From: a bacterium BMS3Abin14
Lineage (GTDB): Bacteria; BMS3Abin14
Length of the DNA stretch: 26,847 nucleotides
NCBI GenBank assembly: GCA_002897695.1
Contig: BDTG01000006.1
Span: forward strand, 1-26,847
Reading direction: 5' to 3'
Below, piece by piece: positions 8,727-25,933 of the stretch (position 1 is its first letter; every line of letters begins with the position of its first letter). The notes below the pieces were generated by a model. That model was not told the DNA's origin. It searched no databases and saw only the letters and a list, made by a program, of their open reading frames with translations. Made by a program: the position numbers and the translations under genes.

Positions 8727-8743
8727 CAGATCCCCCTTATCTC

Positions 8744-10939
8744 CTACCTTTTGTCGGAAATCGGCATTGACATCCAGACCTCGAAGATCCCTTCGGACGG
8801 AAAGGTCTCACAGCTGAACTGTCCGCCCAGCTCTCCCATCCTTCTCTCCATGTTCCTGATCCCCTTGCCCAGGTGGAGTTTTCCCTGTTTTGGAATCGTT
8901 CCATCGTTACGAACGGTGCAGGCGAGTTGATGGTCGACCTCGTTCCACTTGACCCATATGTTTTCAGGACTGGCGTGGGAAAATGCGTTTGAAGAGGTCT
9001 CGTAAAGGGCTCTGGACAGATTGACCCGCTGCCGCGGGGTAAGCGGCCTGTCGGCCTGCACGGTTTCGCTGTCCCAGTGGAGTTCAACCCCGGCATCCTC
9101 ACATCGTTGAACCAATTCATAACGCCACGTCGCAAGGGCCTCCTCGATGGTCACCTCCTCCACCGGATTGATGCTGTAGATGATGTCCCTGAGGGCTTTG
9201 AGGGCGCTGCGTGCCAGAAGCGTGTTCCTCCGGGTTTTCGATGCGTGGACCAGGGACAGGAGGCGGCCCCCGACCTCATCGTGCAGGTCCCGCATGATAC
9301 GCTCCCGCTCCTCCGCAACACCCCTGTTAAACGTGGTAAGTCGATCCTCCGTAGTCCTGGCGATGTAGATGAGGGTCTCTGCCAGTTCGACGTCGTCCCT
9401 GGAAAAGAGCCGGCTGCCTCTGTCGGCGAACCGAAGTTCCACCGTTCCCGTTTGATCCAGGGTGGGGATCAGCATTATCTCGCCGTACTTATCGAGCCTG
9501 GGAGAGGCGTCCCGGCCTTCCAGGGTCCGGTACGAAAGAGGGAGGAACACATCCCTTAGGACGCCAACCCAGGCATTCTTCTCGCTGATGCCGGGGTTCA
9601 CCAACCCCGACAGGAGAACGGGGAGGTGCTGTTTTATCCGATCCCTCGGCCCCTGGTAGAACCTTCCCCATACCCATTGGCGAACCGGGAAATACAGCCA
9701 TCCCACCAGTATAAGAGACAGAGCAAGGGCGACGGACGGCCTGTGAGTGACAGTGAACGCCAGGATGCCGTCCACCGCCAGAACACTGACGCCCGCCAGG
9801 AACCATTTCCAGAACCCGAACCACCAGCGGTCGATGTCAAAAAGGCGGTATCGAAGAATCCCCAGGGCCAGCCCGACATACATCATGGTGACCGCCCCCA
9901 GCCCGACCGACACAGGGACCACGGTTCGACCGGTCAGCGCAGCGGGAACGAAGTAGGTGAAAAAGGCCAGTCCTATAAACCCCAGGAACGCTATGATGAA
10001 ATATTTGAGGGCCGCACGATCGACAGGCCGGCCTTTTGAGCGCCGCCACTGGAGGGCGGCTATCGTAACCCCCATAATAAAATATAGGGTGGGCTGAATC
10101 AACACGGTATGCCCTGGAATGTCCGTCCATTGAAACTGCTCGTTCAGGATGAAAAAGGAGGCCAGAACCGCGACCGCCCTGGTCATCGGGAATGAGCCCA
10201 GGAGCCCGGGGTAATGGAAAAGCAGGCCGATGCCGAAGATCGAGAATATGTTGTTCCCCACGTGGTACAATGCACGGACCGTAGCAAGGAGGTCCGGGTC
10301 AAGGGCGATCTCTCTCGAAACGATGACAGCCATGGCCGTTGTCGTGATGAGAAGGCCCATGCCGGAGAAAAAAAACATCCTGGCCGCCACATTGCGTCTG
10401 CGAACGGACCAGACAGACGCGCCGATCATGAATACCGTGAAACCCATGGCATTCAGCAGCCAGAAATCAAATGGAAACGAGGAAAGCGGTCGGGCACGGG
10501 CCGGCTGTACCCTCACCTTCCGCCCGTCCGCGAGGCTCAATTCCACCAACGGTCCACTGAGGATTCCGGCCAGAACCCCCTGACGATCAAGAAAAGCATT
10601 ATACTTTTTAAAGGTCGGGAAGACGTCGGGGTCCTCCACCAGGTCGGAATCTTCGAAAATAAATGGGCTGCCTGAAAGGGACCGGATGGACAGGATCGAA
10701 TCCCCGGGGGTGAGGATGAGCTCGGACGGGCTTTGGGCCTTCACGCTTTCGACAAAGATACCGGCATGAATGCCGTCCGCCTGCAGACTCAGGCCGAGCC
10801 ATGGCTGGTTGGACGCAACCATGACCGAAAACACCACACAGACCATGGCCAGCAAGGCAGCGACGGACAGGATGAGATATGGGGATTCCAGAATGTTGGC
10901 GCCTGTATCGTGACGTTTGTTCCTGTTGGGACTACTCAT
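8744..10939 (-). CDS. Membrane sensor histidine kinase, PDZ plus multi-span sensor, HisKA_3 type
   Basis: A 731-residue kinase. A membrane helix (about 20-42) is followed by an extracytoplasmic PDZ-like segment (about 48-145: GIFVESVKAQSPSELILTPGD, then SILSI). A block of about eight membrane helices (about 158-425) contains ILRYRLFDIDRWW, a signature of ComP-like multi-span kinases. A degenerate GAF-like region (about 430-540) precedes the HisKA_3 dimerisation helix with phospho-acceptor His553 in MRDLHDEVGG. The ATPase domain carries the N box (ETSSNAFSHA) and the G box (LGKGIRNMERR). It pairs with the NarL-type regulator that follows. The ligand is unknown; the PDZ domain suggests a peptide or misfolded-protein signal. 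The ribosome site is weak, so the start is less sure. Confidence 0.93.
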   Translation of the reverse strand: MSSPNRNKRHDTGANILESPYLILSVAALLAMVCVVFSVMVASNQPWLGLSLQADGIHAGIFVESVKAQSPSELILTPGDSILSIRSLSGSPFIFEDSDLVEDPDVFPTFKKYNAFLDRQGVLAGILSGPLVELSLADGRKVRVQPARARPLSSFPFDFWLLNAMGFTVFMIGASVWSVRRRNVAARMFFFSGMGLLITTTAMAVIVSREIALDPDLLATVRALYHVGNNIFSIFGIGLLFHYPGLLGSFPMTRAVAVLASFFILNEQFQWTDIPGHTVLIQPTLYFIMGVTIAALQWRRSKGRPVDRAALKYFIIAFLGFIGLAFFTYFVPAALTGRTVVPVSVGLGAVTMMYVGLALGILRYRLFDIDRWWFGFWKWFLAGVSVLAVDGILAFTVTHRPSVALALSLILVGWLYFPVRQWVWGRFYQGPRDRIKQHLPVLLSGLVNPGISEKNAWVGVLRDVFLPLSYRTLEGRDASPRLDKYGEIMLIPTLDQTGTVELRFADRGSRLFSRDDVELAETLIYIARTTEDRLTTFNRGVAEERERIMRDLHDEVGGRLLSLVHASKTRRNTLLARSALKALRDIIYSINPVEEVTIEEALATWRYELVQRCEDAGVELHWDSETVQADRPLTPRQRVNLSRALYETSSNAFSHASPENIWVKWNEVDHQLACTVRNDGTIPKQGKLHLGKGIRNMERRMGELGGQFSCETFPSEGIFEVWMSMPISDKR

Positions 10940-12132: not shown

Positions 12133-13143
12133 ATGAAAAGGAACCGTTTTCAGCTGTATTGGCACGGCGCATTTTTTCTATTGCTTTGCCTGGCACTCAC
12201 CGCTGCCATTGGCGCTACCTCAGCCATGGCCAAAGATACGCTGGTATTCTCGGACCTGGGATGGGACAGCGCCCAGGTGCACAACCGCATCGCCGCGTTC
12301 ATCATTGAGAAGGGTTACGGCTACAATGTCGATTACATCGCCGGCGAAACTGTTCCCATGTTCGCCGGTCTTGAGCGAGGAGACATAGATATTACCATGG
12401 AGATATGGGTGGACAACCAGCAGCCGGCCTTTGACAAGGCCATCGCCGCCGGCAAGGTCGTTGACCTGGGCAGCAATTTTCCCGACAGCTGGCAGGGTTG
12501 GCTGGTTCCCACTTATGTAATCAAGGGTGACCCCGCGCGGGGGATCAAGCCTATGGCACCGGACCTCAAGTCCGTGGCCGACATGCCGAAGTACAAGGAC
12601 CTGTTTAAGGATCGCGAGGATCCCGGAAAGGGCGTATTCTACTCCTGTATCGCGGGCTGGGGGTGCGAGAAGATAAACGAGAAGAAATTCGCGGCCTACG
12701 GTCTGAACGACACTTACAACATATTTCTGCCGGGATCAGGCGCAGCCCTTGTGGCTTCTCTTGCAGGAGCCTACAAGAAGGGGGAACCGTGGTTCGGCTA
12801 TTACTGGGCTCCCACCTGGGTCCTGGGATCGTACGACATGACCCCCCTGGAGGAGCCGGCCTACGATCCCAAGATTTTCGAGTCCACGGGCAAATGCGCT
12901 TACCCCGCAGTCAAGGTCGACATCGCCGTAAACTCCAGCATGCTGAAAAAAGCCCCTGACGTGGTTGAATTTTTGAAAAAGTACGAGACCACCCAGGCCA
13001 TTGCCAACGAGTTCCTGGCCTATATGAAGACAAATGACGCCAACACCGAGCAAGCTGCCGAGTGGTTCCTGAAAAAGTACGAAAAGCTGTGGACCGGGTG
13101 GGTCCCTGCCAACGTTGCCGCCAAGGTCAAGATAGCCCTTTAG
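12133..13143 (+). CDS. proX: Glycine betaine/proline-type ABC transporter substrate-binding protein
   Basis: A 336-residue periplasmic binding protein of the OpuAC/ProX family. The start at 12133 follows AAAAGGAGGAATTG. Residues 1-33 are a signal peptide (cleavage after ATSAMA). Aromatic residues expected to cage a quaternary amine are present: DLGWDSAQ, MEIWVDNQQ, DSWQGWLVP and YYWAPTWVLG. It delivers glycine betaine or a related methylamine/choline compound to the membrane permease. The ATPase and permease genes follow on the same strand, completing an importer. The exact ligand cannot be read from the sequence; the symbol is by family. Confidence 0.9.
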   Translation: MKRNRFQLYWHGAFFLLLCLALTAAIGATSAMAKDTLVFSDLGWDSAQVHNRIAAFIIEKGYGYNVDYIAGETVPMFAGLERGDIDITMEIWVDNQQPAFDKAIAAGKVVDLGSNFPDSWQGWLVPTYVIKGDPARGIKPMAPDLKSVADMPKYKDLFKDREDPGKGVFYSCIAGWGCEKINEKKFAAYGLNDTYNIFLPGSGAALVASLAGAYKKGEPWFGYYWAPTWVLGSYDMTPLEEPAYDPKIFESTGKCAYPAVKVDIAVNSSMLKKAPDVVEFLKKYETTQAIANEFLAYMKTNDANTEQAAEWFLKKYEKLWTGWVPANVAAKVKIAL

Positions 13144-13161
13144 TGATCGTTAACCCTCCAG

Positions 13162-13198
13162 CATGGCCAGGCGGCCCTTCATGGGCTTCCTGGCCATG
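13162..13198 (+). other. Intercistronic hairpin between binding-protein and ATPase genes
   Basis: CATGGCCAGG (13162-13171) and CCTGGCCATG (13189-13198) are perfect ten-base arms around a 17-base loop. It lies 18 bases after the binding-protein stop and about 65 bases before the ATPase start, with no T tract. Such hairpins in ABC operons often protect the upstream binding-protein message and lower downstream expression, giving excess binding protein. Confidence 0.6.
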
Positions 13199-13262
13199 TT
13201 GCTGTGTTGCGGTCATGTTGATTCAGCCCTCAAACCGTCGATCCCTTTGAAGGAGATTTTAC

Positions 13263-14519
13263 GTGATCGAGCCCGACGCTTTGCCGTCCGAGTCCATGGA
13301 CGACGGGGAAACCATACTGGAGGCCCGTGGTCTCTGGAAGGTTTTTGGGGAGAACCCCCGCCGCTTCTTCGACTCCAAGTTCAAAGACGAATCAAAAGAC
13401 AAGATCCAGAACGAAATGGGGCTGGTGGTCGGCCTCCGTGACATCTCCTTCGAGGTCCGAAAGGGTGAGATCTTCGTCATCATGGGGCTTTCCGGAAGCG
13501 GGAAGTCCACTCTGATCCGCTGCCTGATCCGGCTTGTCGAGCCCACCGCCGGTGAGATCCGCATCGCCGGCCGCGAGATCTGCTCATTGGACGCCAAGGG
13601 CCTGATGAAGTTTCGTCGACGGTCAACCGCCATGGTCTTTCAGGCGTTCGGCCTTCTGCCCCACTATACGGTCCTTGAAAACGTCGCCTACGGTCTGAAG
13701 ATTCGCGGGATGCCCCTTGAAAAACGGATGAATGTGGCCCAGGCAGCAGTGGAAACCGTGGGTTTGAAGGGATGGGAGAGTTATCTGCCCTCCTCTTTAA
13801 GCGGCGGAATGCAGCAGCGGGTCGGTCTTGCACGGGCCTTCGCCGCTGATCCTGACATCATGCTCCTCGACGAGCCTTTCAGCGGCCTGGATCCTCTCAT
13901 ACGCCGACAGATGCAGGACGAGCTGATCCAACTGCAAAGTGAGCTTCAAAAGACCATGATCTTCGTGACTCATGACGTTCAGGAGGCCCTCAAAATCGCC
14001 GATCGAATCGCTATCATGCAGGACGGGAGGATCATCCAGATCGGCACCCCCGAAGAAATCATCGCAGAACCAGCCACCGATTATGTTCAGGAATTTGTAA
14101 AGGACGCATTTCCCGCCACTGTCCTCACCGCCGGGACTATCATGGAGGACCCGGAAGCCGATATTCATGTCTGGCAGGGACCCAAGGCTGCCTACGCTCT
14201 TATTCGCCGCAGCAAAATGGATTTTGCCTTCGTCCTCGACAAGGCCCACAGGGCCGTGGGCGTCCTGAAACAGGATACGGTGAGAAAACTTGTTAATGAC
14301 GGTAACGACTCAATTGCATCCGGGATGGTCACCGATTTTGAGACCTGCACCACCGACATGACGGTGGAAGAACTCTTTCCCCTGGCTACCGCAAGCCCCT
14401 TCCCCATAGCCGTCCTCGATGATGATGAAAAGCTTCTCGGATATATCCGCAATCACACCATCATTGAAAGCATGATCCAGGAGGGTCACCCTGAGGACGC
14501 GGAGAACCGGAATGTTTGA
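13263..14519 (+). CDS. proV: Glycine betaine-type ABC transporter ATPase with CBS domains
   Basis: A 418-residue ATPase beginning with GTG at 13263 behind AAGGAGATTTTAC. The N-terminus has the ProV/OpuAA-specific insertion (VFGENPRRFFDSKFKDESKD). Walker A is GLSGSGKST (75-83), the signature is LSGGMQQR (179-186) and Walker B is IMLLDEPFSGLD (199-210). The C-terminal part (about 280-412) is a CBS pair, which in OpuA-type transporters senses ionic strength or nucleotides and gates transport. The gene overlaps the permease gene by eight bases, indicating translational coupling. Confidence 0.95.
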   Translation: MIEPDALPSESMDDGETILEARGLWKVFGENPRRFFDSKFKDESKDKIQNEMGLVVGLRDISFEVRKGEIFVIMGLSGSGKSTLIRCLIRLVEPTAGEIRIAGREICSLDAKGLMKFRRRSTAMVFQAFGLLPHYTVLENVAYGLKIRGMPLEKRMNVAQAAVETVGLKGWESYLPSSLSGGMQQRVGLARAFAADPDIMLLDEPFSGLDPLIRRQMQDELIQLQSELQKTMIFVTHDVQEALKIADRIAIMQDGRIIQIGTPEEIIAEPATDYVQEFVKDAFPATVLTAGTIMEDPEADIHVWQGPKAAYALIRRSKMDFAFVLDKAHRAVGVLKQDTVRKLVNDGNDSIASGMVTDFETCTTDMTVEELFPLATASPFPIAVLDDDEKLLGYIRNHTIIESMIQEGHPEDAENRNV

Positions 14520-15369
14520 GTTTCCAAAACAACTTTATTTACCCCTGGAGAAGTGGATCGATTCCCTGATGGACTGGATCATGACCCACACCGCCGGTTT
14601 TTTCGACATCATCGGGAACGCTCTCCTGCAGGTCCTCATTGTCATCGAGAAGTTCCTCCTCTGGCTGCCGTGGCCGGTGGTTCTCATCTTTACTGCCGTG
14701 CTGGCCTGGAGGACCATGGGGAGATGGTGGCACGGCGTGATAATGGCGGCTTTGATCTTCTTCATTGGAGTCTTCGGTTACTGGGATGATTCCATGAGGA
14801 CCCTTGCCGTGGTCATCGCCTCGGTGGCGGTGTCCCTTGTCATCGGCTTCCCCGCCGGGATACTCATGGCCCGCAGCAACCGTTTTCGGGCGATCCTTCA
14901 CCCGATCCTTGACGGAATGCAGACCATGCCCAGTTTTGTCTACCTGATCCCGGCCATGATGCTTTTCGGCCTTGGAAAAGTGCCGGCTGTGTTTGCCACC
15001 GTGATCTACGCTGTTCCTCCCATTATCCGTCTCACTAACGTGGGCATCCGTGGAGTCCCGGAGAGCGTGGTGGAAGCGGCCAGGTCTTTCGGCGCAAGCA
15101 ACCGTCAGATCCTTTTTGACGTTCAGCTGCCCCTGGCCTTTCCCAGTATCATGGTGGGGGTGAGCCAGACGACCATGATGGCACTGGCCATGGTGGTCAT
15201 CGCCTCCATGATCGGCGCCAGAGGACTGGGCCTGGAAGTCCTCAAGGCAATCAACCGCATAGAGATCGGCCACGGGTTTACGGCGGGTCTCAGCATCGTC
15301 TTCCTGGCCATCGTCATAGACCGGATCACAAATGCCTTCGCCATGAAGCAGCAAAAACACCTGGGTTGA
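14512..15369 (+). CDS. proW: Glycine betaine-type ABC transporter permease
   Basis: A 285-residue inner-membrane permease of the ProW/OpuAB family. Membrane segments are visible at about 50-66, 78-90, 97-118, 141-168, and beyond 210. The coupling helix motif that docks on the ATPase is EAARSFGASNRQ (188-199). Its start lies inside the end of the ATPase gene (eight-base overlap). With the binding protein and ATPase it forms a complete importer. The N-terminal 48 residues include an amphipathic extension common in this family. Confidence 0.93.
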   Translation: MFEFPKQLYLPLEKWIDSLMDWIMTHTAGFFDIIGNALLQVLIVIEKFLLWLPWPVVLIFTAVLAWRTMGRWWHGVIMAALIFFIGVFGYWDDSMRTLAVVIASVAVSLVIGFPAGILMARSNRFRAILHPILDGMQTMPSFVYLIPAMMLFGLGKVPAVFATVIYAVPPIIRLTNVGIRGVPESVVEAARSFGASNRQILFDVQLPLAFPSIMVGVSQTTMMALAMVVIASMIGARGLGLEVLKAINRIEIGHGFTAGLSIVFLAIVIDRITNAFAMKQQKHLG

Positions 15370-15585: not shown

Positions 15586-16551
15586 TCAATCCCTCCCACG
15601 GGATATTTTCTTCCCCGTTGGGCTTGACGGAAGGACGGGAAGACCCGCGGCCCTTTCCAGTTTGTCGCGACTCTCGGAAAGGAACAGCCGGAATCCTTCA
15701 GCAGCCGGGCTCAGCGGACTGTTCGGAAGATACAGCATGTAGCTCCTGCGACGGAAATTGAGGTCGGATACCCGGACGGCGCAAAGGTTCCCGACCATGA
15801 CTTCCAAGGTTACCGCCCTTGATGAGACGAAGGCAACGCCGAGGTTCGCGGCCACCGTCTTCTTGATGGCCTCCGTGCTCCCAAGGTCCATCGTGTGCAC
15901 CAAGGAAACGCCTGTCCGCCGCAACTCCTCTTCGATAATCTCCCTGGTCCCGGTGCCTCTCTCCCGGAGGATGAACATGTCCTCGGTGAGGGTCTTGGTC
16001 GATACGGTTTCCATGGTGGCAAACCGGTGCTGAGGGGAAACTATCAACACCATATCATCCTCCAGATACTTGTCCATGGCAAGTTCCGGAAAGGGAACAG
16101 GCGGCATGACAAATCCCAGTTCCACAATACCGTCCCTCACCTGACGAATAACCTCTTCCTTGTTCGAGATGGCAAGACTGATCTCGATCCCCGGGTGTTC
16201 CGATTTGAACTCTCCCAGCACGTCGGGAATCATGTAGATTCCGATAGTGGTGGCGGCGCTGATCCGGAGATGTCCTCGGATCAGCCCCTTCAGGCCGTCG
16301 ATAGCCTTCTGCGCATCCGTCAGGAGCTGAAACACTCGGATGGAGTATTGTTCCAGGATCTGTCCCGCTTCCGTGATGGCGAGAAATCGTCCTTTCCGGA
16401 GGAAAAGTTGCGTGCCGAGATACTCTTCAAGGCCTTGGATCTGTCGGGAAACGGCGGGCTGGGTGAGATGAAGCTCTCCCAAGGCCTTGGTAATTCCCCG
16501 GAATTTGGCAACCGTCAAGAAAGTGCGGAGGCTGGAAAGATTCACATCCAT
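15586..16551 (-). CDS. LysR-family transcriptional regulator
   Basis: A 321-residue regulator. The N-terminal winged helix-turn-helix (about 1-60) contains FLTVAKFRGITKALGELHLTQPAVSRQIQGLE. The effector domain (about 90-300) starts GHLRISAATTIGIYMIPDVLGEF, as in CysB/CbbR-like LysR proteins. AGAGGGG precedes the ATG at 16551. It is divergent from the operon beginning with the CBS-pair gene, with 138 bases between the starts and a 9+9 inverted repeat in between. The usual arrangement is that such a LysR protein controls the divergent operon in response to a pathway metabolite. It is convergent with the betaine transporter, so that is the less likely target. Confidence 0.93.
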   Translation of the reverse strand: MDVNLSSLRTFLTVAKFRGITKALGELHLTQPAVSRQIQGLEEYLGTQLFLRKGRFLAITEAGQILEQYSIRVFQLLTDAQKAIDGLKGLIRGHLRISAATTIGIYMIPDVLGEFKSEHPGIEISLAISNKEEVIRQVRDGIVELGFVMPPVPFPELAMDKYLEDDMVLIVSPQHRFATMETVSTKTLTEDMFILRERGTGTREIIEEELRRTGVSLVHTMDLGSTEAIKKTVAANLGVAFVSSRAVTLEVMVGNLCAVRVSDLNFRRRSYMLYLPNSPLSPAAEGFRLFLSESRDKLERAAGLPVLPSSPTGKKISRGRD

Positions 16552-16583: not shown

Positions 16584-16615
16584 AAATGCATACATACCAT
16601 AGAATATATGCATTT
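16584..16615. promoter_or_regulatory. Candidate LysR operator: inverted repeat
   Basis: AAATGCATA (16584-16592) and TATGCATTT (16607-16615) are perfect nine-base inverted arms separated by 14 bases, in an AT-rich island within GC-rich DNA. The arms lie 33-64 bases upstream of the LysR start and 75-106 bases upstream of the CBS-pair start. Position and symmetry fit an autoregulated LysR box. Confidence 0.6.
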
Positions 16616-16689: not shown

Positions 16690-17166
16690 ATGGTTACCAG
16701 CGGACGGACAGCCAAGGACATCATGACCTCTCCGGTATGTACGGTTCAGCCGGTGGATTCTCTGGAGAAGGTGATCGACGTGATCTGCCGGCGCTGTGTC
16801 AGCGGGGTCCCCGTGGTGGAGGGAAAGGGACACTTGATCGGACTGATCTCGGAACACGACATCCTCCACGCCATGTATCCCGGCAACGTCGACACCCAGG
16901 AAAAACCGCCCAGTCGACGGGCCGCGCAAAGCCTGAGAAACGTAAGCAAACTCCTTGCACGAGACATCATGGTTACGCAGGTCATCACCGCGCATCCGGA
17001 AACTGAACCCCTTCGACTGGCATCAATCATGGCCCTGCAAAAGATCCGCCGCATTCCTATCGTCGAGGGGGAAACACTTGTAGGGATCGTCAGCTACGGG
17101 GACGTGTGCAGGGCTATCTTCGGGATGCGGGGCTTCGGCGACAAGTCGTCGGGGCCCGGATCATGA
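16690..17166 (+). CDS. CBS-domain pair protein
   Basis: A 158-residue cytoplasmic protein made of two CBS domains: AKDIMTSPVCTVQPVDSLEKV to ISEHDILHAM (about 8-62) and ARDIMVTQVITAHPE to VSYGDVCRAIF (about 90-145). The chosen start at 16690 has AAAGGTGAAG upstream; an earlier in-frame ATG at 16621 would add a hydrophobic stretch without a ribosome site. Stand-alone CBS pairs bind AMP, ATP or S-adenosylmethionine and modulate partners. It is the first gene of the operon, ending 35 bases before the acyl-CoA ligase gene, so it may sense energy charge for the AMP-forming ligase or the pathway. Confidence 0.88.
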   Translation: MVTSGRTAKDIMTSPVCTVQPVDSLEKVIDVICRRCVSGVPVVEGKGHLIGLISEHDILHAMYPGNVDTQEKPPSRRAAQSLRNVSKLLARDIMVTQVITAHPETEPLRLASIMALQKIRRIPIVEGETLVGIVSYGDVCRAIFGMRGFGDKSSGPGS

Positions 17167-17201
17167 CATCCCCCGGTTCGTTTGGGAAAAGGAGATACAG
17201 G

Positions 17202-18713
17202 ATGCATGAGAAGATCGATCTTACGCTTCCCGAGTTACTCGCCCACGGGGAGTCGGATGCGCCGGCGCTGCTTGCGCCCGATCGCACGGAACTGACTTTC
17301 CACATGTTGCGCGAACAGGTCTACGCGCTTGTCGAACGCCTGGCCTCCCTTGGCCTGGCGGGGGATCGGATCGCGATTGTAATGGAGAACGGACCGGATC
17401 TTGCGCTCTCCCTCTTGGCAGCGTCCATCTGCGGCACCGCTGTGCCTCTCAATCCAAAGTATCGCGGCGCAGAGTTTACCTTCTTCTATGAGAAAGCGAA
17501 CGTAAAAGGATTGATCGTTTCGCCCGACATCACCCCTGAGGCCGTTGACGCGGCCTCGCCCGGAACGATCGTAACACATGCGGTGGCCGACCGATCCGGC
17601 ATGCTGCACTTTGAGTCCACCGGGTCCAAGCGATCCGGGCGAGATCTGCTGAGCCCGGATCCTGACGACGTGGCGATCCTGCTGCACACAAGCGGCACCA
17701 CCAAATGCCCCAAGAGCGTGCCGATCCGGCACCGCAACGTGGCCGCATCGGCCGCCAACATAGTCAACGCCTACAACCTCACCCCCGAAGACCGGTCCCT
17801 GTGCGTGATGCCGCTGTTTCACATCCACGGGATCGTGGCCTCGCTGCTTGCACCGCTTGCCAGCGGCGGATCGGTAGTATGCCCGCCTGGTTTCGACGCG
17901 CGCCTTTTCTGGGGATGGGTCGATATGTTCCATCCAACCTGGTATTCTGCCGTGCCGACGATGCACCAGATGTTGCTTTCGCGCACCGACCAGCACGCCG
18001 AGGTCATCCGCAACAATCCGTTCCGCTTCATTCGATCCTGCAGCTCCCCCCTGCCGCCCACCGTGAAAGAACAATTGGGTGCGGTCTTCAACGTACCGGT
18101 GACCGAAGCCTACGGAATGACCGAAACCACTCACCAGATAGCCAGCAACCCTCTGCCGCCGGGGATCTGCAAGCCCGGGGCGGTAGGCTACGGCGTCGGC
18201 GTGCAGGTGGCGATCATGGACGAGGCGGGCGCGCTGCTGTCGGCAGGATCCTCGGGCGAGGTGGTTGTGCGGGGTTTGAACGTGGTAGATGGCTATGAGA
18301 ACAACCCGGAAGCGAACGAGGCCACGTTCGTTCGGGGATGGCTCCGCACGGGAGATCAGGGAGTGATGGACGAGGACGGCTACCTGACCATTACCGGCCG
18401 CCTCTCTGAGCAGATCAACCGCGGCGGGGAAAAAATCTCGCCTGCGGATATCGACCATGTCTTGCTCACCCACCCGGCTGTTGCAGAGGCGTTGGCGTTC
18501 GCCGTGCCGCACCGGAAGCTCGGAGAGGACATGCACGCGGCCGTCGTCCTCCAGGCGTCGGCAACCGAACGGGAGCTTCGCCAGCACTGTGCAAGCCTCC
18601 TGGCCGATTTCAAGGTTCCCCGCCGGATTTACATCCTGGAGACACTTCCGTGCGGGAAGACCGGAAAGCCCATGCGCATCTCCATGGCTGAAATAATGGG
18701 ACTGGAAGAGTAG
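17202..18713 (+). CDS. AMP-forming acyl-CoA ligase, oxalyl-CoA synthetase-like
   Basis: A 503-residue adenylate-forming enzyme; AAAAGGAGATACAGG sets the start at 17202. Motifs are in order: ATP loop TSGTTKCPKS (163-172), MPLFHIHGIVASLL, TWYSAVPTMHQMLL, RFIRSCSSPLPP, YGMTETTHQIASNPLP (304-319), RTGD with Asp385, NRGGEKISP and the C-terminal catalytic Lys489. The runs around WYSAVPT, RSCSS, MTETTH..SNPLP and RGGEKISP closely follow plant AAE3 and yeast Pcs60, which are oxalyl-CoA synthetases, from memory of those sequences. The reaction would be oxalate + ATP + CoA to oxalyl-CoA + AMP + PPi. It lies ten bases before a PanE-family reductase and shares the operon with a glyoxylate carboligase. 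Another short dicarboxylate or acid remains possible. Confidence 0.82.
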   Translation: MHEKIDLTLPELLAHGESDAPALLAPDRTELTFHMLREQVYALVERLASLGLAGDRIAIVMENGPDLALSLLAASICGTAVPLNPKYRGAEFTFFYEKANVKGLIVSPDITPEAVDAASPGTIVTHAVADRSGMLHFESTGSKRSGRDLLSPDPDDVAILLHTSGTTKCPKSVPIRHRNVAASAANIVNAYNLTPEDRSLCVMPLFHIHGIVASLLAPLASGGSVVCPPGFDARLFWGWVDMFHPTWYSAVPTMHQMLLSRTDQHAEVIRNNPFRFIRSCSSPLPPTVKEQLGAVFNVPVTEAYGMTETTHQIASNPLPPGICKPGAVGYGVGVQVAIMDEAGALLSAGSSGEVVVRGLNVVDGYENNPEANEATFVRGWLRTGDQGVMDEDGYLTITGRLSEQINRGGEKISPADIDHVLLTHPAVAEALAFAVPHRKLGEDMHAAVVLQASATERELRQHCASLLADFKVPRRIYILETLPCGKTGKPMRISMAEIMGLEE

Positions 18714-18723
18714 GGAGCAGATC

Positions 18724-19716
18724 ATGCGCATCGCAATCATCGGCGCCGGATCGATCGGCGGCTATCTCGCGGCGAAGCTTCTCCTTTCCGGCCAGCCGGT
18801 CACGGTGATCGTCCGCGGCGCCAATCTGGCGGCCATCCGCGCGAACGGGCTGAAGCTACGCCTGCCCGACGGTACGGAAAAAACGGCAATCCCGGACCTT
18901 GCGACCGATGACCTGGCAGCCGCCGGTCCGCAAGATGTGGTCATTCTGGGAGTGAAAGGGCAGCAGCTTTCCGCCTTGGCCCCGACACTAGGGCCGCTCC
19001 TGGGCCCCGAGACCGCCGTAGTCCCGGCGCAGAACGGAATTCCCTGGTGGTACTTCCAGCGACACCGCGGGCCTTTCGAGGGACGGCGGCTGGAGTCGGT
19101 CGATCCCGGTGGGGCGATATCGGCGCACATCGGTTCGGAGCGGGTGATCGGATGTGTGGCCTATCAGGCGGCAGAGCTTGTGGAGCCTGGCATCGTGCGC
19201 TTCGTCGAGGGAAACCGGTTCACGCTCGGCGAACCCGATGGCGAGAAGACCGAACGGGTCATGGCGCTGGCTCAGGCGCTCACCCGAGCGGGCCTGAAGG
19301 TGCCCGTACGCCGTGACATCCGCACGGAGATCTGGGTGAAGCTTCTGGGAAACATGACCTTCAACCCGATCAGCGCACTCACACGCTCTACGCTTGGCCA
19401 GATCATCGGCTTCGAGCCGACTCGCAATCTGGTTGTTGCCACCATGGCCGAGGCGCAGGAGGTGGCCTCGCGACTGGGCATCCGGATCGCGATCACCAGC
19501 GAGATGCGTATCCAGGGAGCGGCGCAGATGGGCTCCCATAAGACCTCCACGCTGCAGGACATCGAGTCGGGCCGTATGACGGAAGTGGAGTGGCTCGTGG
19601 GAGCTGTCGCCGAGCTGGGCCGCCTGGTGGAATTCCCGACTCCAAGGATCGACACGCTCTATTCATGTCTCAGGCTCCTGGAGCAGACAACCTGCGGCGG
19701 ACAGTTGTCCAGGTAA
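18724..19716 (+). CDS. PanE/ApbA-family reductase, candidate oxalyl-CoA reductase
   Basis: A 330-residue NAD(P)-binding reductase of the ketopantoate reductase family; GGGAGCAGATC precedes the ATG. The Rossmann loop is GAGSIGG (7-13), the substrate region has QNGIPWW, and the catalytic Lys206 with Asn210 and Asn214 occurs in IWVKLLGNMTFNPISAL, followed by SHKTSTLQDIESGRMTEVE. Ketopantoate reduction for CoA synthesis is the default family role. Here the gene is sandwiched between an oxalyl-CoA-synthetase-like gene and a glyoxylate carboligase gene. In Methylobacterium extorquens a PanE-family protein reduces oxalyl-CoA to glyoxylate, so that reaction would link the two neighbours. This role is inference from context; a genuine ketopantoate reductase is the alternative. 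Confidence 0.85.
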   Translation: MRIAIIGAGSIGGYLAAKLLLSGQPVTVIVRGANLAAIRANGLKLRLPDGTEKTAIPDLATDDLAAAGPQDVVILGVKGQQLSALAPTLGPLLGPETAVVPAQNGIPWWYFQRHRGPFEGRRLESVDPGGAISAHIGSERVIGCVAYQAAELVEPGIVRFVEGNRFTLGEPDGEKTERVMALAQALTRAGLKVPVRRDIRTEIWVKLLGNMTFNPISALTRSTLGQIIGFEPTRNLVVATMAEAQEVASRLGIRIAITSEMRIQGAAQMGSHKTSTLQDIESGRMTEVEWLVGAVAELGRLVEFPTPRIDTLYSCLRLLEQTTCGGQLSR

Positions 19717-19814
19717 ACTATCCATGCGGTCCTCGGAAATATTCCCGGATCGATGGTTGAACAAAAACACGCAGCCCAGATCACCGGCGGATTTCTGGGG
19801 AAAGGAGAAAAATC

Positions 19815-21539
19815 ATGGCAAAGATGAGCGCAATGGCAGCCGCTTTGAAAATACTGGAAAGCGAAGGCGTCAGACACATTTTCGGCATCCCGGGGGCGGG
19901 AATTCTCCCCTTTTACCAGGAGCTTCGGAACCTGGGCAAGATCGATCACCTGCTGTGTCGGCACGAAGAGGGGGCGATCCACATGGCAGACGGGTACGCC
20001 CGCGCCGTCGGCACCGTGGGAGTATGCGCGGCGACCTCGGGTCCCGGGGCGAGCAATTTCGTGACCGGGCTGTATACCGCGCAGGTCGACTCGATCCCCG
20101 TTCTGGCCATCACCGGCCAGAACGTAAAGGCGCAGCTGGGCAGGGAAGCCTTCCAGGCGGTGGACATCGCGTCGATCGTCAAACCCGTCACCAAGAAGTC
20201 GTATTGCGTACAGGAGCCGGCCATGGTGCCGTGGGTGTTCAGGGAAGCGTTCCGGATCATGCGGGAGGGTCGTCCCGGCCCGGTCCTGATTGATCTTCCT
20301 CTGGATGTCCAGAAGGGAGAAATCGAGTACGACGCCGAGACGGATCCGAGTCTGCCCATCTTTCGTGCTCCGCCCGATCAGAGGCAGGTGGCCAGGGCGC
20401 TGGACATGCTGCTTGCGGCGGAAAAACCAATCATGCTCCTTGGAGGGGGCGTGATTCTTGCCGACGCCTGCGAGGAATTCGTGAAGGTCGCCGAGTTTCT
20501 GCAGATCCCGGTCGTTTCCTCGTACATGGGAAAGGGAGGAATCCCGTGGGACCACCCTCTCATGGCCGGCCAGGTCGGGATCCAGTGCAACACCCGATCG
20601 GGGAACCAGACTCTTCTCGATTCGTCCCTGGTGCTGGCCGTCGGGGCCCGGTTCAACGACCGCCACACCGGCGCCATCGATGTCTACAAGGGAAACAGGA
20701 AATTTATCCATGTGGATGTGGACCCCGGCCAGCTCGGGAAGAACATCATGCCGGACTTGGGGATCTGCGCGGATGCGAAGCTCACCCTTTCGGCCCTGCT
20801 GGAGGAGATCGAAAGGCGCAGCCTCAAGCCGCCCACTCCGAATCGCGAGGTCGCGGAGCTTCGCACCAGTCTGGAAAGGAAGACCGACTACGACGATACC
20901 CCGATCAAACCCCACAGGGTGTTTGGGGAGATCAACAAGTTTTTCGACGACGACACCGTGTTCGTGACCTGCATCGGCCTGAACCAGATCTGGTCCGGCC
21001 AGCTGCAGAAGATTGCCAAACCCAGGCATTATCTTGATTGCGGGGGCGCAGGGCCGCTGGGATGGGACCTTCCGGCAGCCATTGGGGCCAAGGTTGCCCG
21101 ACCGGACACGACGGTGGTCCAGGTGGTCGGAGATTACGGTTTCCAGTTCTGCATGGAAGAACTGCCCGTCGCTGTGATGTATAATGTACCTTTTGTGTGC
21201 ATCGTCCTGAACAACGGATACCTTGGACTGATCCGCCAGGCCGAAAAATACATCTTCGACATGAATTACGAAATCCAGACCTGGTACGACGCGTTGACCG
21301 GAGAAGGAACGAAGGAACACCCCGTCGAGCCCGAAAACGGGGGCCGCGGATTCGATTTCGTGAAGTTCGCCGATGCCTGCGGGGCCATGGGAGAACGCGT
21401 CACCGATCCGAAGGAGATCAGAGCCGCCTTTCAAAGGGCGGTGGATTCTGGCGTGCCCTACGTCATCGACATCATCACAGAACGGGAGACGGACTGCTCG
21501 ATGGGTGTCTCCATCAATGCGATCCGGGAATTTGAATAG
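19815..21539 (+). CDS. gcl: Glyoxylate carboligase (tartronate-semialdehyde synthase) with canonical Glu51
   Basis: A 574-residue thiamine-diphosphate enzyme; AAAGGAGAAAAATC sets the start. It follows E. coli glyoxylate carboligase over its length: FGIPGAGI, FQAVDIASIVKPVTKK, RPGPVLIDLPLDVQ, NDRHTGAIDVYKGNRKFIHVD, AGPLGW, the thiamine motif from GDYGFQF (about 439) to LNN, YLGLIRQ and the C-terminal SMG...EFE. The reaction is two glyoxylate to tartronate semialdehyde plus CO2. The remarkable point is RHEEGA: position 51 is Glu, as in acetolactate synthases, where E. coli Gcl has Val. Kinetics or substrate range may therefore differ. The alcohol dehydrogenase gene follows 25 bases later. Hydroxypyruvate isomerase and GlxR, the usual neighbours, are absent. 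Confidence 0.9.
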   Translation: MAKMSAMAAALKILESEGVRHIFGIPGAGILPFYQELRNLGKIDHLLCRHEEGAIHMADGYARAVGTVGVCAATSGPGASNFVTGLYTAQVDSIPVLAITGQNVKAQLGREAFQAVDIASIVKPVTKKSYCVQEPAMVPWVFREAFRIMREGRPGPVLIDLPLDVQKGEIEYDAETDPSLPIFRAPPDQRQVARALDMLLAAEKPIMLLGGGVILADACEEFVKVAEFLQIPVVSSYMGKGGIPWDHPLMAGQVGIQCNTRSGNQTLLDSSLVLAVGARFNDRHTGAIDVYKGNRKFIHVDVDPGQLGKNIMPDLGICADAKLTLSALLEEIERRSLKPPTPNREVAELRTSLERKTDYDDTPIKPHRVFGEINKFFDDDTVFVTCIGLNQIWSGQLQKIAKPRHYLDCGGAGPLGWDLPAAIGAKVARPDTTVVQVVGDYGFQFCMEELPVAVMYNVPFVCIVLNNGYLGLIRQAEKYIFDMNYEIQTWYDALTGEGTKEHPVEPENGGRGFDFVKFADACGAMGERVTDPKEIRAAFQRAVDSGVPYVIDIITERETDCSMGVSINAIREFE

Positions 21540-21564
21540 ACATCCAATGTCGGAAAGGATAGCC

Positions 21565-22848
21565 ATGTTGGCTTTGAAGGAACAAGCAGCTCACATGCTG
21601 AAGGAGTTCAAGGGGGAATACTACGCGTTCGGCAGCGGGGCGATGGACGACGCGCCGGGAAAATTTGCAGCTGAGTTCGGCAGGAGATCTCTGTTTATCG
21701 GTCCACTGGCATCCCCATGGTTTTCCCCCATCCGGGAGCGGATTCTCGCATCCCTGAAACAGTCTGGGGTGGACGTGGTGGAAGAGGTGCAGTCCGCCGC
21801 GCCGAACGCTCCGGTGGAAGATGTCTACCGGATCCACGAACGCATCATCGAGGGGAGACCGGATGTTCTGGTCGTGGCAGACAGCGGTTCCGGGATCGAC
21901 GCCGTCAAGGCTGCCGACGTATTGGCCACACTGGGAACCAGCCCGCCGGATATCGATCCGTTCTTCGGAGTCGGGAAGGTGTCCGAAACGCTTGAGCGAT
22001 CCGGCAGGTCTCTGACGCCGGTGGTGGCCGTCATGATGGCGTCAAGTTCCGGAGCGCATCTAACCAAATATTCCAACATCACCAATACTGTTGTCCAGCA
22101 GAAGAAGCTCATCGTGGACGAGGCCATCATTCCGCCGCGCGCCGTCTTCGACTACGATGTAACCACCACTCAACCCATGAGTCTCACCCTGGATGGAGGA
22201 CTGGACGGGATCGCCCACTGCCTCGAAGTCTACTTCGGGGCCTCGTCCGAATCCCGGGAACGCGCCCGCCAGGTGGCCGAGCCCGGAATTGAGCTTATCA
22301 TCAAGGGCCTCATCGAGGTGAAGAAAGATGCGGCAAACCGGGAGGCCAGGACCCTGCTGGGGCTGGGGACGGACCTCGGCGGCTATTCCATCATGATTGG
22401 CGGCACGTCCGGGGCACACCTGACCAGTTTTTCCCTGGTCGATGTCCTGAGCCACGGACGGGCGTGCGCCCTCATGAATCCCTATTACACAGTGTTTTTT
22501 GCTCCGGCAATCCAGGAACAGCTGCGTGTGATAGGACGTATTTACGGGAAATACGGATTCCTGAAGGAAGACCTGGACTCTCTGTCAGGCAGGGAACTGG
22601 GTGTGGCGGTGGCCGAGGCGATGATCAGGTTCAGCCGGTTATTGGGCTTCCCCACGCGCCTGAGCGATGTGGAAGGAGTCGGCAGGAAACATATCGAACG
22701 TTGTCTCACCGCTGCGAAGGATCCGCTGTTGGATATGAAGCTAAGAAATATGCCGGTTCCCCTCCACGAAGAGCTGGTGGACCGTTACATGGGACCGATC
22801 CTGGAGGCCGCCTGGACAGGAGAATTCGGAAAGATCAGGAACATGTAG
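21565..22848 (+). CDS. Iron-containing (group III) alcohol dehydrogenase
   Basis: A 427-residue enzyme. The start at 21565 has GGAAAGGA five bases upstream; an in-frame ATG at 21547 is the alternative. The N-terminal NAD(P)-binding half includes ADSGSGIDAVKAADV. Metal ligands appear as Asp214 and His218 (LDGIAHCLE), His285 (SGAHL) and His297 (LSHGRA), the last two 12 apart rather than the more usual 14. The family reduces aldehydes or oxidises alcohols. Following the carboligase gene by 25 bases, its most economical role is reduction of tartronate semialdehyde to glycerate, replacing GlxR/GarR. This substrate is an inference; glycolaldehyde, lactaldehyde or 4-hydroxybutyrate are alternatives. 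Confidence 0.87.
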   Translation: MLALKEQAAHMLKEFKGEYYAFGSGAMDDAPGKFAAEFGRRSLFIGPLASPWFSPIRERILASLKQSGVDVVEEVQSAAPNAPVEDVYRIHERIIEGRPDVLVVADSGSGIDAVKAADVLATLGTSPPDIDPFFGVGKVSETLERSGRSLTPVVAVMMASSSGAHLTKYSNITNTVVQQKKLIVDEAIIPPRAVFDYDVTTTQPMSLTLDGGLDGIAHCLEVYFGASSESRERARQVAEPGIELIIKGLIEVKKDAANREARTLLGLGTDLGGYSIMIGGTSGAHLTSFSLVDVLSHGRACALMNPYYTVFFAPAIQEQLRVIGRIYGKYGFLKEDLDSLSGRELGVAVAEAMIRFSRLLGFPTRLSDVEGVGRKHIERCLTAAKDPLLDMKLRNMPVPLHEELVDRYMGPILEAAWTGEFGKIRNM

Positions 22849-23083
22849 CGCGTTCTTTCCGCGTTCCGGGACCGCACCCCACCACGCCGCACTTTCCAGG
22901 GCATGGCCCCAGAAAGATGACGGATAAAGTGGAGAAACGGTTGCCCTCCCGAAAATTCTGCAATCAGGAGAGAAAGATGAATGTTGTTTCCATTTACGAG
23001 GGGCGAGGGAACCGTTTATCTATTCCATCTTCACGGGACCCGACGCAACCAGGCAGGATGTTGCGCCCGACAGCGGAGAATTT
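22849..23083 (+). other. Spacer before the racemase gene
   Basis: This 235-base gap interrupts an otherwise tight operon. A 43-codon frame beginning at 22978 has a fair ribosome site (CAGGAGAGAAAG) and runs to 23109, slightly overlapping the racemase start. Its peptide has no recognisable pattern. It might be a leader peptide coupling translation to the racemase gene or simply chance. No terminator was seen. Confidence 0.35.
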
Positions 23084-24385
23084 ATGGAAGACGGGAACGG
23101 GGACATGAACGTCCATCTTCTTTACGGGCGCAATGGCCTCGACCTCCGCCTGCCGAAGGATATCCAGGTTACGGTGGTTCGCAAGCATCCGATGCAGCCT
23201 CTGAACGATCCGGGCCGGGCCGTGGAACGAGCTCTGGAAAAGCCGGTGGGGTCCCCTCCCCTCGCGATGATGGCTCGCGGCAAAAAAAACGCCTGCATCC
23301 TGATCTGCGATATTACACGTCCTGTGTCCAACGGCACACTGCTCCCGCCTCTCATCGAAACGATCACGGGGGCGGGGATTCCCTTGGAGAACATCCTCAT
23401 CCTGGTAGCTACGGGGCTGCACCGCCCCAACGAAGGGGAAGAATTACGGGAGGTCGTCGGATGCGACGAAGTGTTTAACACTGTACGCATCGAGAACCAC
23501 TTCGCCCGGGACAGGGATGCCCATGCGCACCTTGGAAGTACGTCTCGGGGAATTCCGATCATGATCGACCGCCGTTTCGTCGAAGCCGACCTGAAGATCG
23601 TCTCCGGGTTGGTCGAGCCACACTTCATGGCCGGTTATTCCGGCGGCCGCAAGCTGGTCACCCCGGGGGTTGCCTATCAGGACACGATTCTTTCTTTCCA
23701 TGCCGCGCCTATCCTGGAACATCCCCGTTCCGCCAATTGCGTCATCGAGGGTAATCCCCTCCACGAGGAACAGATCGAAATCGTCCGGAAGATAGGGGGA
23801 ATAATGGGGGTCAACGTGGTCATCGATGAGAACCGGCGCATGGGATTCGTCAATTTCGGCGCTGTCGAGGAGAGCCACCTGGAAGCCGTGGAGTTCATCA
23901 GGAGGCATGCGGAAGTGCCCCAGCCCAGACGCTTCCGGACGGTCGTCACCACAGGCGCGGGGTATCCCCTGGACGGAACGTACTACCAGACCATCAAGGG
24001 CATGGTGGGCGTTCTGGATATCCTGGAACCCGGTGGAACCATCATTATCGCCAGCGAGTGTTCGGAAGGGATGGGCAGCCGGGAATTCGTCGAGGCTCAG
24101 CGGCTGCTTCGGAAGATCGGGCCGGACCGGTTCCTGTCCGTTCTTGAATCGCGCGAGAAGGCCCATATCGACGAATGGCAGACCGAAATGCTGGTTAAGG
24201 CTTTGCGGGTTGGGACGGTCAAACTCTATACTACGGGCCTGAGTGAAGAGAACCTGCAGGACGTGTTTGTGGATCCTGTCTCTTCTGTGGAAAATGCGGT
24301 CGTCACCAGTGTGAAAGCACATAAAGACCCGACCATCGCTGTGGTGCCCGAAGGATCCTACGTTATTCCTTATCTTCAGAAATAG
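23084..24385 (+). CDS. larA: LarA-type nickel-pincer 2-hydroxyacid racemase/epimerase
   Basis: A 433-residue protein of the LarA (DUF2088) superfamily. All residues known for the Lactobacillus plantarum lactate racemase active site are visible with a shift of 4 to 7: Asp76 and Arg79 (CDITRP), His113 (TGLHRP), His180 (VEPHFM), Lys190 (YSGGRKLVTPGVA), which would carry the pincer cofactor, His206, Tyr301 and Lys305 (YQTIKGM), and Trp365. It therefore should bind the nickel-pincer nucleotide and racemise or epimerise a 2-hydroxyacid. LarB, LarC and LarE for cofactor synthesis are not in the window. In this operon D/L-glycerate is a plausible substrate, but lactate cannot be excluded. GGAG lies five bases before the chosen start; ATG at 23105 is an alternative. 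Confidence 0.9.
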   Translation: MEDGNGDMNVHLLYGRNGLDLRLPKDIQVTVVRKHPMQPLNDPGRAVERALEKPVGSPPLAMMARGKKNACILICDITRPVSNGTLLPPLIETITGAGIPLENILILVATGLHRPNEGEELREVVGCDEVFNTVRIENHFARDRDAHAHLGSTSRGIPIMIDRRFVEADLKIVSGLVEPHFMAGYSGGRKLVTPGVAYQDTILSFHAAPILEHPRSANCVIEGNPLHEEQIEIVRKIGGIMGVNVVIDENRRMGFVNFGAVEESHLEAVEFIRRHAEVPQPRRFRTVVTTGAGYPLDGTYYQTIKGMVGVLDILEPGGTIIIASECSEGMGSREFVEAQRLLRKIGPDRFLSVLESREKAHIDEWQTEMLVKALRVGTVKLYTTGLSEENLQDVFVDPVSSVENAVVTSVKAHKDPTIAVVPEGSYVIPYLQK

Positions 24386-24490: not shown

Positions 24491-25933
24491 ATGAGAAGGA
24501 CGCGCATCGTCTGCACCATAGGGCCCGCTGCAAGATCGAGCAGGATGCTGGAGAAGCTCGTTGGAGCCGGCATGGATGTGGCCCGCCTCAACATGGCCCA
24601 CGGAAGCCGGGAGGAACACCTCGCGGTCATCACCCGGCTGCGCAAGCTGAGCAGAAAGAAAAACAGACCGGTGGGGATCCTCCTGGACCTTGCAGGGGTC
24701 AAGTTGCGCATCAGCGAGGTCAATGGTTCTGGAGTTGTGCTGGAGAAGGGTGCTCAGGTACTCCTCAGGCAGGGGCGCCGGCCCACTACTTCCGAGACTC
24801 TTTTCGTCCCCTACGCCGGTCTCACGAAAAACCTGAAGGAAGGGCACCGGATCCTCATCGACGACGGCCGGGTGGAGCTCTTGGTCACCGGCAGGGAGGG
24901 CAACGCCATCCGTGCGCGAGTGAGGGAAGGAGGAACGCTCACCTCGCACAAGGGCCTCAATTTTCCCGACACGGACATCTCAACCCGGTCCTTCACGTCC
25001 AAGGACCGGGACGACCTGGCCTTCGGGATCAGACACGGGGTTGACGCCTTCGGCGTTTCTTTCGTGTCCACGGCCAAGGACGTGATGGTAGTGAAAAAGG
25101 CCCTTAAAAAGGCTGGTTACGAAGCTCCACTCATTGCAAAGATCGAGAGGCCCGCAGCGGTGAAGAACATTGATGAGATCCTGGATGTCTCCGACGGGAT
25201 CATGGTGGCCCGGGGCGACCTGGGGGTGGAGGTCTCGGCCGCTGCCGTGCCCATCATCCAGAAGGACCTGATCCTGCGCGCTGCAAGGAAAAACCGGTTC
25301 GTCATCACCGCCACCCAGATGCTCGAGTCCATGATCCACAGCTCTGTGCCCACCAGGGCTGAGGCGGCTGACGTGGCCAACGCCGTTTTAGACGGTTCCG
25401 ACGCGGTCATGCTCTCGGCCGAATCATCGGTGGGGATGTACCCCATAAAAGCTGTGCAGACCATGGATCTAATCGTCAGGGAGGCCGAGGGGAACGGCAA
25501 GTCCTACAGGACGGACCTCCCGGTACCGGCGCCGGTTTCCGGCGGTCGACCCGGCCACGGCGGCGTCGCAACGGCTGAGGCTACCGCCCGCGCAGCCCGG
25601 GAAGTGGGGGCGCGCTGCATTGTCGCCTTCACCAGTTCCGGTTACACGGCGGGCCTCCTGTCCCGGTTCCGACCTGCGGTTCCCATCATTGCTTTCACCT
25701 CCAACCGTAAGGCGGTGGATCGCATGAAGTTCGCCTGGGGGGTTGTTCCCCTTTTCATGGAGCACCTCGACAGTACCGACGCCATGATAGCAGGGGTGGA
25801 AAGGGTCGAGGTGGAAAAGGCCTTGATAAAAGGCCGTCACGCCCGCAGGGGCGACACCGTCGTTATCACCGCCAGCCTTCCCATGGCCCAATGGGGAAAG
25901 ACGAAATTCCTGAAGGTACACAAGATCCAGTAA
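24491..25933 (+). CDS. pyk: Pyruvate kinase, potassium-independent type
   Basis: A 480-residue pyruvate kinase converting phosphoenolpyruvate and ADP to pyruvate and ATP. Key segments are RIVCTIGPA, ARLNMAHG (32-38), catalytic Lys217 in IAKIERPAAV, MVARGDLGVE (238-247), TATQMLESMI and SAESSVGMYP, followed by a normal C-terminal allosteric domain. The usual DTKGPEIRT block is DLAGVKLRI (66-74), placing Lys71 where potassium-dependent enzymes have Glu117 (rabbit numbering), Leu67 for Thr113 and Ile74 for Thr120. NMAHG also lacks the potassium-ligand Ser of NFSHG. These are the residues that mark the potassium-independent branch. It could be the final step from the C2 operon's glycerate via phosphoenolpyruvate, though it is likely transcribed separately. 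Confidence 0.96.
   Translation: MRRTRIVCTIGPAARSSRMLEKLVGAGMDVARLNMAHGSREEHLAVITRLRKLSRKKNRPVGILLDLAGVKLRISEVNGSGVVLEKGAQVLLRQGRRPTTSETLFVPYAGLTKNLKEGHRILIDDGRVELLVTGREGNAIRARVREGGTLTSHKGLNFPDTDISTRSFTSKDRDDLAFGIRHGVDAFGVSFVSTAKDVMVVKKALKKAGYEAPLIAKIERPAAVKNIDEILDVSDGIMVARGDLGVEVSAAAVPIIQKDLILRAARKNRFVITATQMLESMIHSSVPTRAEAADVANAVLDGSDAVMLSAESSVGMYPIKAVQTMDLIVREAEGNGKSYRTDLPVPAPVSGGRPGHGGVATAEATARAAREVGARCIVAFTSSGYTAGLLSRFRPAVPIIAFTSNRKAVDRMKFAWGVVPLFMEHLDSTDAMIAGVERVEVEKALIKGRHARRGDTVVITASLPMAQWGKTKFLKVHKIQ

Follow-up and report, generated by a model that had tools for sequence, protein, structure and literature searches.

Gene content and conservation of the locus

The window analyzed here is a stretch of 26,847 nucleotides that makes up contig BDTG01000006.1 (C6) of the bacterium BMS3Abin14 (GCA_002897695.1; a 2.28 Mb genome in 49 contigs), and it contains a run of genes that we suggest is a LysR-controlled operon for the assimilation of oxalate. 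The gene encoding the LysR-family regulator (15586–16551, minus strand; PF03466/PF00126) is divergent from the run, all genes of which lie on the plus strand. A gene for a two-CBS-domain protein, putatively an adenylate-sensing partner (16690–17166; PF00571 twice), comes first, followed by genes for an AMP-forming ligase, a predicted oxalyl-CoA synthetase by its PDB relatives and its position in the tree (17202–18713), and a PanE/ApbA-family reductase, predicted from a tree to be an oxalyl-CoA reductase (18724–19716; PF02558/PF08546). The next gene encodes a Gcl-type thiamine diphosphate (ThDP) enzyme, by its clade a glyoxylate carboligase with Glu51 for Val51 (19815–21539; PRK11269, 753 bits). 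It is followed by genes for a divergent iron-type alcohol dehydrogenase (Fe-ADH), a predicted tartronate semialdehyde reductase (21547–22848, start alternatively at 21565; PF00465/PF25137), and a LarA-type nickel-pincer racemase, predicted to act on glycerate (23105–24385; PF09861). The starts of these six genes are corrected ones, and the gaps between them are 35, 10, 98, 7 and 256 bp in the order of the genes. All six genes reported in the initial annotation are thus present in the order and on the strand described there, but the run continues past larA with a pyruvate kinase gene (24491–25933; TIGR01064, 500 bits) that was missed there, begins 105 bp after larA and is most likely the final gene. 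AG-rich stretches resembling ribosome-binding sites precede several of the gene starts, and no promoter or terminator signals above chance were found at the locus. We infer that the genes from CBS to pyk are co-transcribed.

The gene order is conserved. Contigs of a genome collection were scanned with an alignment of four Gcl sequences, which returned 80 loci, and genomes G004 and G446 were added; neighborhoods were called from homology searches and named ORFs, and statements about whole genomes cover the searched families only. The order lysR, divergent from CBS-ligase-panE-gcl-Fe-ADH, is kept in five genomes, the one of the window included (the other loci are L034, which is from G004, L042, L047 and L139), and a check of neighborhood conservation, as proposed in the initial annotation, has thereby come out in favor of the cassette. 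As the same order is found in these four other loci, the line-up of genes is not due to chance. Orthologues in the same position are 67–74% identical for LysR, and the CBS orthologues of the four loci are 62–70% identical. The larA gene comes next after the Fe-ADH gene in four of the five genomes and is not directly downstream in L042, while pyk follows larA in the window and in G004, where the orthologue in the same position is 85% identical. A scan of the class and phylum of the window gave nothing further (12 genomes, all of one family).

The region between lysR and the CBS gene contains a stretch that is conserved across the five cassette loci. In the window it includes an inverted repeat, AATGCATA-N14-TATGCATT (16585–16614; arms at 16585–16592 and 16607–16614), of which the right arm, TATGCATT, is retained in all five loci, and the left arm is changed in L034 and L042. 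The repeat is missing from the control locus L040, which is without the ligase and panE genes. We suggest that the repeat is a probable LysR site, binding being predicted from the sequence. CBS genes directly after panE are also found in Azospirillum and Skermanella.

The route that we propose for the operon is the following. The ligase would convert oxalate, CoA and ATP to oxalyl-CoA, the PanE-type enzyme would reduce oxalyl-CoA to glyoxylate, and the Glu51 carboligase would join two molecules of glyoxylate, with loss of CO2, into tartronate semialdehyde. This would then be reduced to glycerate by the Fe-ADH, and LarA would interconvert L- and D-glycerate for use by a glycerate 2-kinase encoded elsewhere, after which 2-phosphoglycerate could pass via enolase to phosphoenolpyruvate (PEP), from which the pyruvate kinase encoded last in the run would form pyruvate. 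The substrate of every enzyme, and the stereochemistry of the Fe-ADH product, are predicted from protein families, conserved gene order, phylogenetic placement, catalytic residues and a recurrent context of oxalate and glyoxylate genes. We consider the core from oxalate via glyoxylate to tartronate semialdehyde to be likely, and the full route, in which Fe-ADH and LarA act as proposed, to be less so. The reading of the locus as an oxalate-to-C3 operon, made in the initial annotation, is supported by phylogeny and gene context, with corrections in its details. The word "complete" is too strong, as the operon has no genes for glycerate kinase and enolase and an oxalate transporter is unassigned.

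Predicted steps from oxalate to glyoxylate

The closest solved structures of the ligase are oxalate-CoA ligases (350–383 bits for three full-length entries), and the next family in the PDB ranking reaches 188 bits. In a ligase tree, the cassette ligases group with AtAAE3, LsOCS and Pcs60 together with two bacterial ligases (support 100/99); these two are relatives at 42–44% and adjoin genuine Oxc genes scoring 978 bits. His311 of the window ligase corresponds to His319 of AAE3, which we take to be a residue that contacts oxalate. All five cassette ligases have this histidine, as do the two Oxc-adjacent ones, and none of seven outgroup ligases has it. Related genes also occur together elsewhere, as a Methylobacterium bullatum plasmid carries an OxlT-like gene (62% identical to an annotated OxlT) with neighboring panE and ligase genes (51% and 47%, respectively), and ligase and panE adjoin each other in Rhodobacteraceae SC52. 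Two ligase relatives from other contexts (L137 and L140) fall inside the same oxalyl-CoA synthetase clade, so that membership of the clade is by itself no guarantee that oxalate is the substrate. Taken together, the ligase very probably acts on oxalate. As a separate observation, L140 (7783–16395) combines its ligase of this clade with a protein resembling PEP mutase/methylisocitrate lyase, an Oxc-like ThDP enzyme and a nonribosomal peptide synthetase (NRPS), a neighborhood that suggests a biosynthetic use of the ligase family.

In the PanE tree, the cassette enzymes group with PanE proteins from oxalate loci, and housekeeping PanE is split off at 93/99, with some of the forks being weak. The cassette enzymes share Tyr147 and His272 with the oxalate-locus group in the alignment, and the catalytic Lys206 and Glu287 are retained in the window enzyme. 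Homologues at 46–51% identity from Azospirillum, Phyllobacterium, Cupriavidus and Nonomuraea are encoded next or close to oxlT, frc, oxc, sucCD, gcl or CBS genes. On plasmids of Azospirillum ramasamyi (L169) and Phyllobacterium zundukense (L177), panE and gcl are found in one region with frc and with oxc or a ThDP relative; in A. ramasamyi this region also carries oxlT and pyk. An oxalyl-CoA reductase gene in one locus with a carboligase gene is therefore not the unusual arrangement that it was first taken for. We find the case for oxalyl-CoA as the substrate of the window PanE to be a strong one.

A ProX/ProV/ProW-type ABC transporter is encoded upstream of lysR (12133–15369). We considered it as an oxalate importer and dropped it, as no such transporter was observed next to the four other cassette loci.

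Carboligase, dehydrogenase and racemase

The carboligase scores just under the curated cut-offs of the two Gcl models, with 753.3 bits against 791 for PRK11269 and 625.1 against 711.2 for TIGR01504, and these are still its two top-scoring families. Residue 51 is glutamate (codon at 19965–19967), where the E. coli enzyme has valine, and valine at this position has been described as characteristic of the entire Gcl family (PMC3534367). We placed the enzyme in a tree of 42 sequences that had acetolactate synthase and Oxc as outside groups and included only three Val51 sequences. All Gcls, the one of the window among them, form one group at 100/100 that excludes acetolactate synthase and Oxc. Nested among its Glu51 members are the three Val51 sequences (100/100 for a 15-row set). 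Glu51 Gcls are widespread, being present in the window, L034 and L040–L119, and their genes adjoin hyi in 43 fetched loci, mostly from Actinomycetota (many from one genus) and also from Bacillota, Chloroflexota and Acidobacteriota. In three examples, NCBIfam scans back the presence of hyi and glxR beside such a gene, with the curated cut-offs being passed in two of the three. The patterns used for the scan contain the glutamate, so the fraction of Glu51 enzymes among Gcls is not given by this sample.

As the Val51 clade is nested within Glu51 sequences and Glu51 homologues lie near hyi and glxR, Val51 may not be a defining feature of the Gcl family, in conflict with what has been published. 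Taken strictly, the published definition makes the enzyme of the window Gcl-like, and by clade it is a Gcl; as a correction to the original assignment, it is an atypical one in residue 51 and in its model scores. The possibility that the Glu51 enzyme is an acetolactate synthase or an Oxc was ruled out by the tree and by the hyi and glxR neighbors of its homologues. We would be surprised if the carboligase did not act as a Gcl.

The Fe-ADH retains all four metal ligands (D220, H224, H291 and H303). It belongs to the Pfam Fe-ADH family and not to the beta-hydroxyacid dehydrogenase family TIGR01505, which contains GlxR and GarR, but may work like GlxR. In most loci that contain the core of gcl and Fe-ADH genes, the Fe-ADH gene comes after gcl, in the position where other gcl loci often have glxR. 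No hyi is found in the fetched loci with an Fe-ADH gene near gcl, and a GlxR-like gene only in L046, on the opposite strand; gcl loci without Fe-ADH often carry both hyi and glxR, these loci not being phylogenetically independent. No Fe-ADH homologue was found on the plasmids at 1e-30, and a literature search returned no paper joining Fe-ADH with tartronate semialdehyde. We propose that Fe-ADH is probably the tartronate semialdehyde reductase.

LarA has the LarA of Isosphaera pallida as its closest solved relative and, in an alignment to LarA structures, keeps the catalytic His106 and His173, Lys183, the cofactor residues including an arginine, and the specificity pair Trp358-Gln359. The glutamine of this pair has been linked to LarAH43, for which kcat/KM is higher with glycerate than with lactate (PMC11770544). 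The Trp-Gln pair is also present in the broad-spectrum I. pallida enzyme and so does not single out glycerate. On balance, we lean toward glycerate as the substrate. Of the genes for maturation of the NPN cofactor, the search covered larC, which is present elsewhere in the genome of the window. A glycerate kinase is absent from the operon, as first reported, but one of the DUF4147/MOFRL type is encoded elsewhere in the genome. Our hypothesis is that Fe-ADH gives L-glycerate, which LarA then converts. This could be extended to a broader scenario in which Gcl was ancestrally a Glu51 enzyme, with Val51 arising later in one branch, and in which the Glu51 Gcl here works with a non-homologous Fe-ADH that makes glycerate of the hand that the kinase is unable to use, so that LarA is needed as a racemase; we hold this tentatively, with rather more doubt than belief. 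Some LarA enzymes are known to racemise glycerate efficiently, the physiological significance of which was left open by a 2024 study (PMC11770544). The operon offers LarA glycerate racemases a role that can be tested and that, if this broader scenario is true, is a physiological one.

Alternative explanations and related systems

Several observations weigh against the proposed route, some in general and others by favoring a particular alternative. A genome of the same genus, G001, has no close Gcl or ligase homologue at the thresholds used, and the distribution of the cassette is consequently patchy. No OxlT (TIGR04259) over the cut-off is found in the genome of the window, the best match reaching 182.6 bits against 335 and the matches being weaker family members only. 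Furthermore, the core could run from glyoxylate to pyruvate as described while the ligase and PanE use another small acid, such as glycolate, malonate or tartronate. The identity of the ligase to characterized oxalate enzymes is moderate, its superfamily switches substrate easily, and relatives at 47–48% sit in NRPS-type (one case) or unrelated neighborhoods; a 37% relative adjoins a TctA carboxylate transporter, and PanE relatives at about 40% lie in aromatic-degradation clusters, which argues that specificity drifts within that family. Unrelated contexts of this kind had been named as a potential objection from the start. The closer PanE relatives, however, lie with oxlT, frc and oxc. As the ligase is also placed within the oxalyl-CoA synthetase clade and shares many of the residues specific to it, the counterpart of AAE3 His319 included, we regard another acid as unlikely. 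It is more improbable still that PanE is simply the ketopantoate reductase of the cell, unrelated to glyoxylate, with an operon that activates oxalate or something else and performs no reduction. In the genome of the window there is no second PanE over the ApbA cut-off, so this one could be, or double as, ketopantoate reductase; NCBIfam subfamily models name it 2-dehydropantoate 2-reductase, the annotation that panE also bears in the Azospirillum and Phyllobacterium plasmid regions, and in G446 the single further PanE match is weak. On the other hand, G004, G147 and G152 own a separate PanE (28–32% identical) yet retain the operon copy, the tree parts cassette PanE from housekeeping PanE, and other enzymes, for example IlvC, are able to reduce ketopantoate.

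A partly reversed operon, in which the PanE-type enzyme oxidises glyoxylate to oxalyl-CoA and the ligase frees oxalate as a means of glyoxylate disposal, strikes us as highly improbable. The sequence does not fix the direction and both reactions should be reversible in principle, but a single regulator would then control two modules in competition for glyoxylate, panE of Azospirillum and Phyllobacterium sits among genes for oxalate transport or breakdown, and AMP-forming ligases are normally pushed toward the thioester by pyrophosphate hydrolysis. The alternative that we take most seriously concerns only the last part of the route and leaves the oxalate reading of its beginning untouched, namely that Fe-ADH and LarA have a function other than forming glycerate, for example on lactate or an alcohol-derived aldehyde, with glycerate coming from a reductase encoded elsewhere. 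GlxR over the cut-off is encoded elsewhere in three of the five cassette genomes (G147, G152 and G446), where Fe-ADH need not be the reductase. The nearest solved relatives of Fe-ADH, methanol and propanediol dehydrogenases, score only about 70 bits, and LarA enzymes are promiscuous, the closest solved one preferring lactate and 2-hydroxybutyrate. Since neither the genome of the window nor G004 has GlxR over the cut-off, and loci with Fe-ADH beside gcl differ from other gcl loci in their lack of hyi and near-absence of glxR, we think this alternative has a modest chance of being correct, and favor Fe-ADH and LarA as glycerate-forming and glycerate-racemising enzymes.

Oxalate assimilation via the glycerate pathway, with oxalyl-CoA reductase, Gcl and tartronate semialdehyde reductase, is known from other bacteria (PMC12927642). 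The systems of Azospirillum and Phyllobacterium have the same predicted intermediates, a PanE-type reductase and Gcl in one locus, and IclR or LysR regulators, and the Azospirillum locus resembles the window also in its CBS genes and pyruvate kinase. In contrast to these, the operon described here has an AMP-forming ligase instead of Frc, lacks oxc, hyi and glxR, has Fe-ADH and LarA at the GlxR position, and contains a Glu51 Gcl. The absences noted initially stand: oxc is missing from the window and, over the cut-off, from the five cassette genomes, hyi and glxR are not in the window, and frc is absent from the window, a genome-wide frc search not having been made. The gcl-hyi-glxR operons of E. 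coli and many other bacteria likewise have Gcl at the center and lead from glyoxylate to glycerate, but here there is no Hyi, Fe-ADH and LarA take the place of GlxR, and E. coli Gcl has Val51. AtAAE3, LsOCS and yeast Pcs60 share a sequence clade and conserved positions with the ligase of the window. These eukaryotic oxalyl-CoA synthetases have other functions, for example in the breakdown of oxalate by plants, while the bacterial ligases described here are encoded in operons together with a reductase. Methylobacterium extorquens AM1, whose oxalyl-CoA reductase is named PanE2, sends glyoxylate into the serine cycle and not to a carboligase. Its reduction of oxalyl-CoA to glyoxylate, as cited in PMC3720670 (Schneider et al. 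2012), is a step shared with our operon; a related PanE lies beside the OxlT-like gene and ligase of M. bullatum.

The pathway itself is thus known, and what is new is the AMP-forming activation, the replacement of GlxR by Fe-ADH and LarA, and the Glu51 Gcl. This suggests that an uncultured and poorly known lineage is able to assimilate oxalate, an acid abundant in plants and soil, via a compact operon with ATP-dependent entry. The Glu51 carboligases bear on the published rule for recognizing the family and on why Val51 Gcls work without the glutamate, and, if the broader scenario above is true, they provide natural enzymes for probing why the E. coli one lacks it.

The core of gcl and Fe-ADH genes also occurs with other neighbors. 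About 10 further loci contain it, most with larA and all without ligase and panE. Several of these, or gcl loci without Fe-ADH, carry the glycolate oxidase genes glcD/E/F and a regulator of the IclR type that matches the BhcR model best; where glcD/E/F come after a gcl-Fe-ADH-larA core, they are often under such a regulator. Other core loci (L041, L043, L044 and L055) have class V aminotransferases related to glyoxylate enzymes. We infer that the core consumes glyoxylate while the feeding module varies, the ligase and PanE being one of several interchangeable suppliers, although the core loci are related to each other and are not independent draws. This suggests that glyoxylate use is built of interchangeable modules, for oxalate, glycolate or amino acids, on one core. 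In L041 the aminotransferase gene precedes the core and has BhcA as its best model (438.8 bits, under the cut-off of 650), a 48% homologue of the glycerate kinase of the window genome likewise precedes the core and adjoins gcl (by tblastn only), and an ORF at 8356–9924 matched nothing. In L139 (2839–3213) and L041 (13556–13954), the Fe-ADH gene is separated from larA by a small gene with a cupin domain, at the place where the window has its gap of 256 bp.

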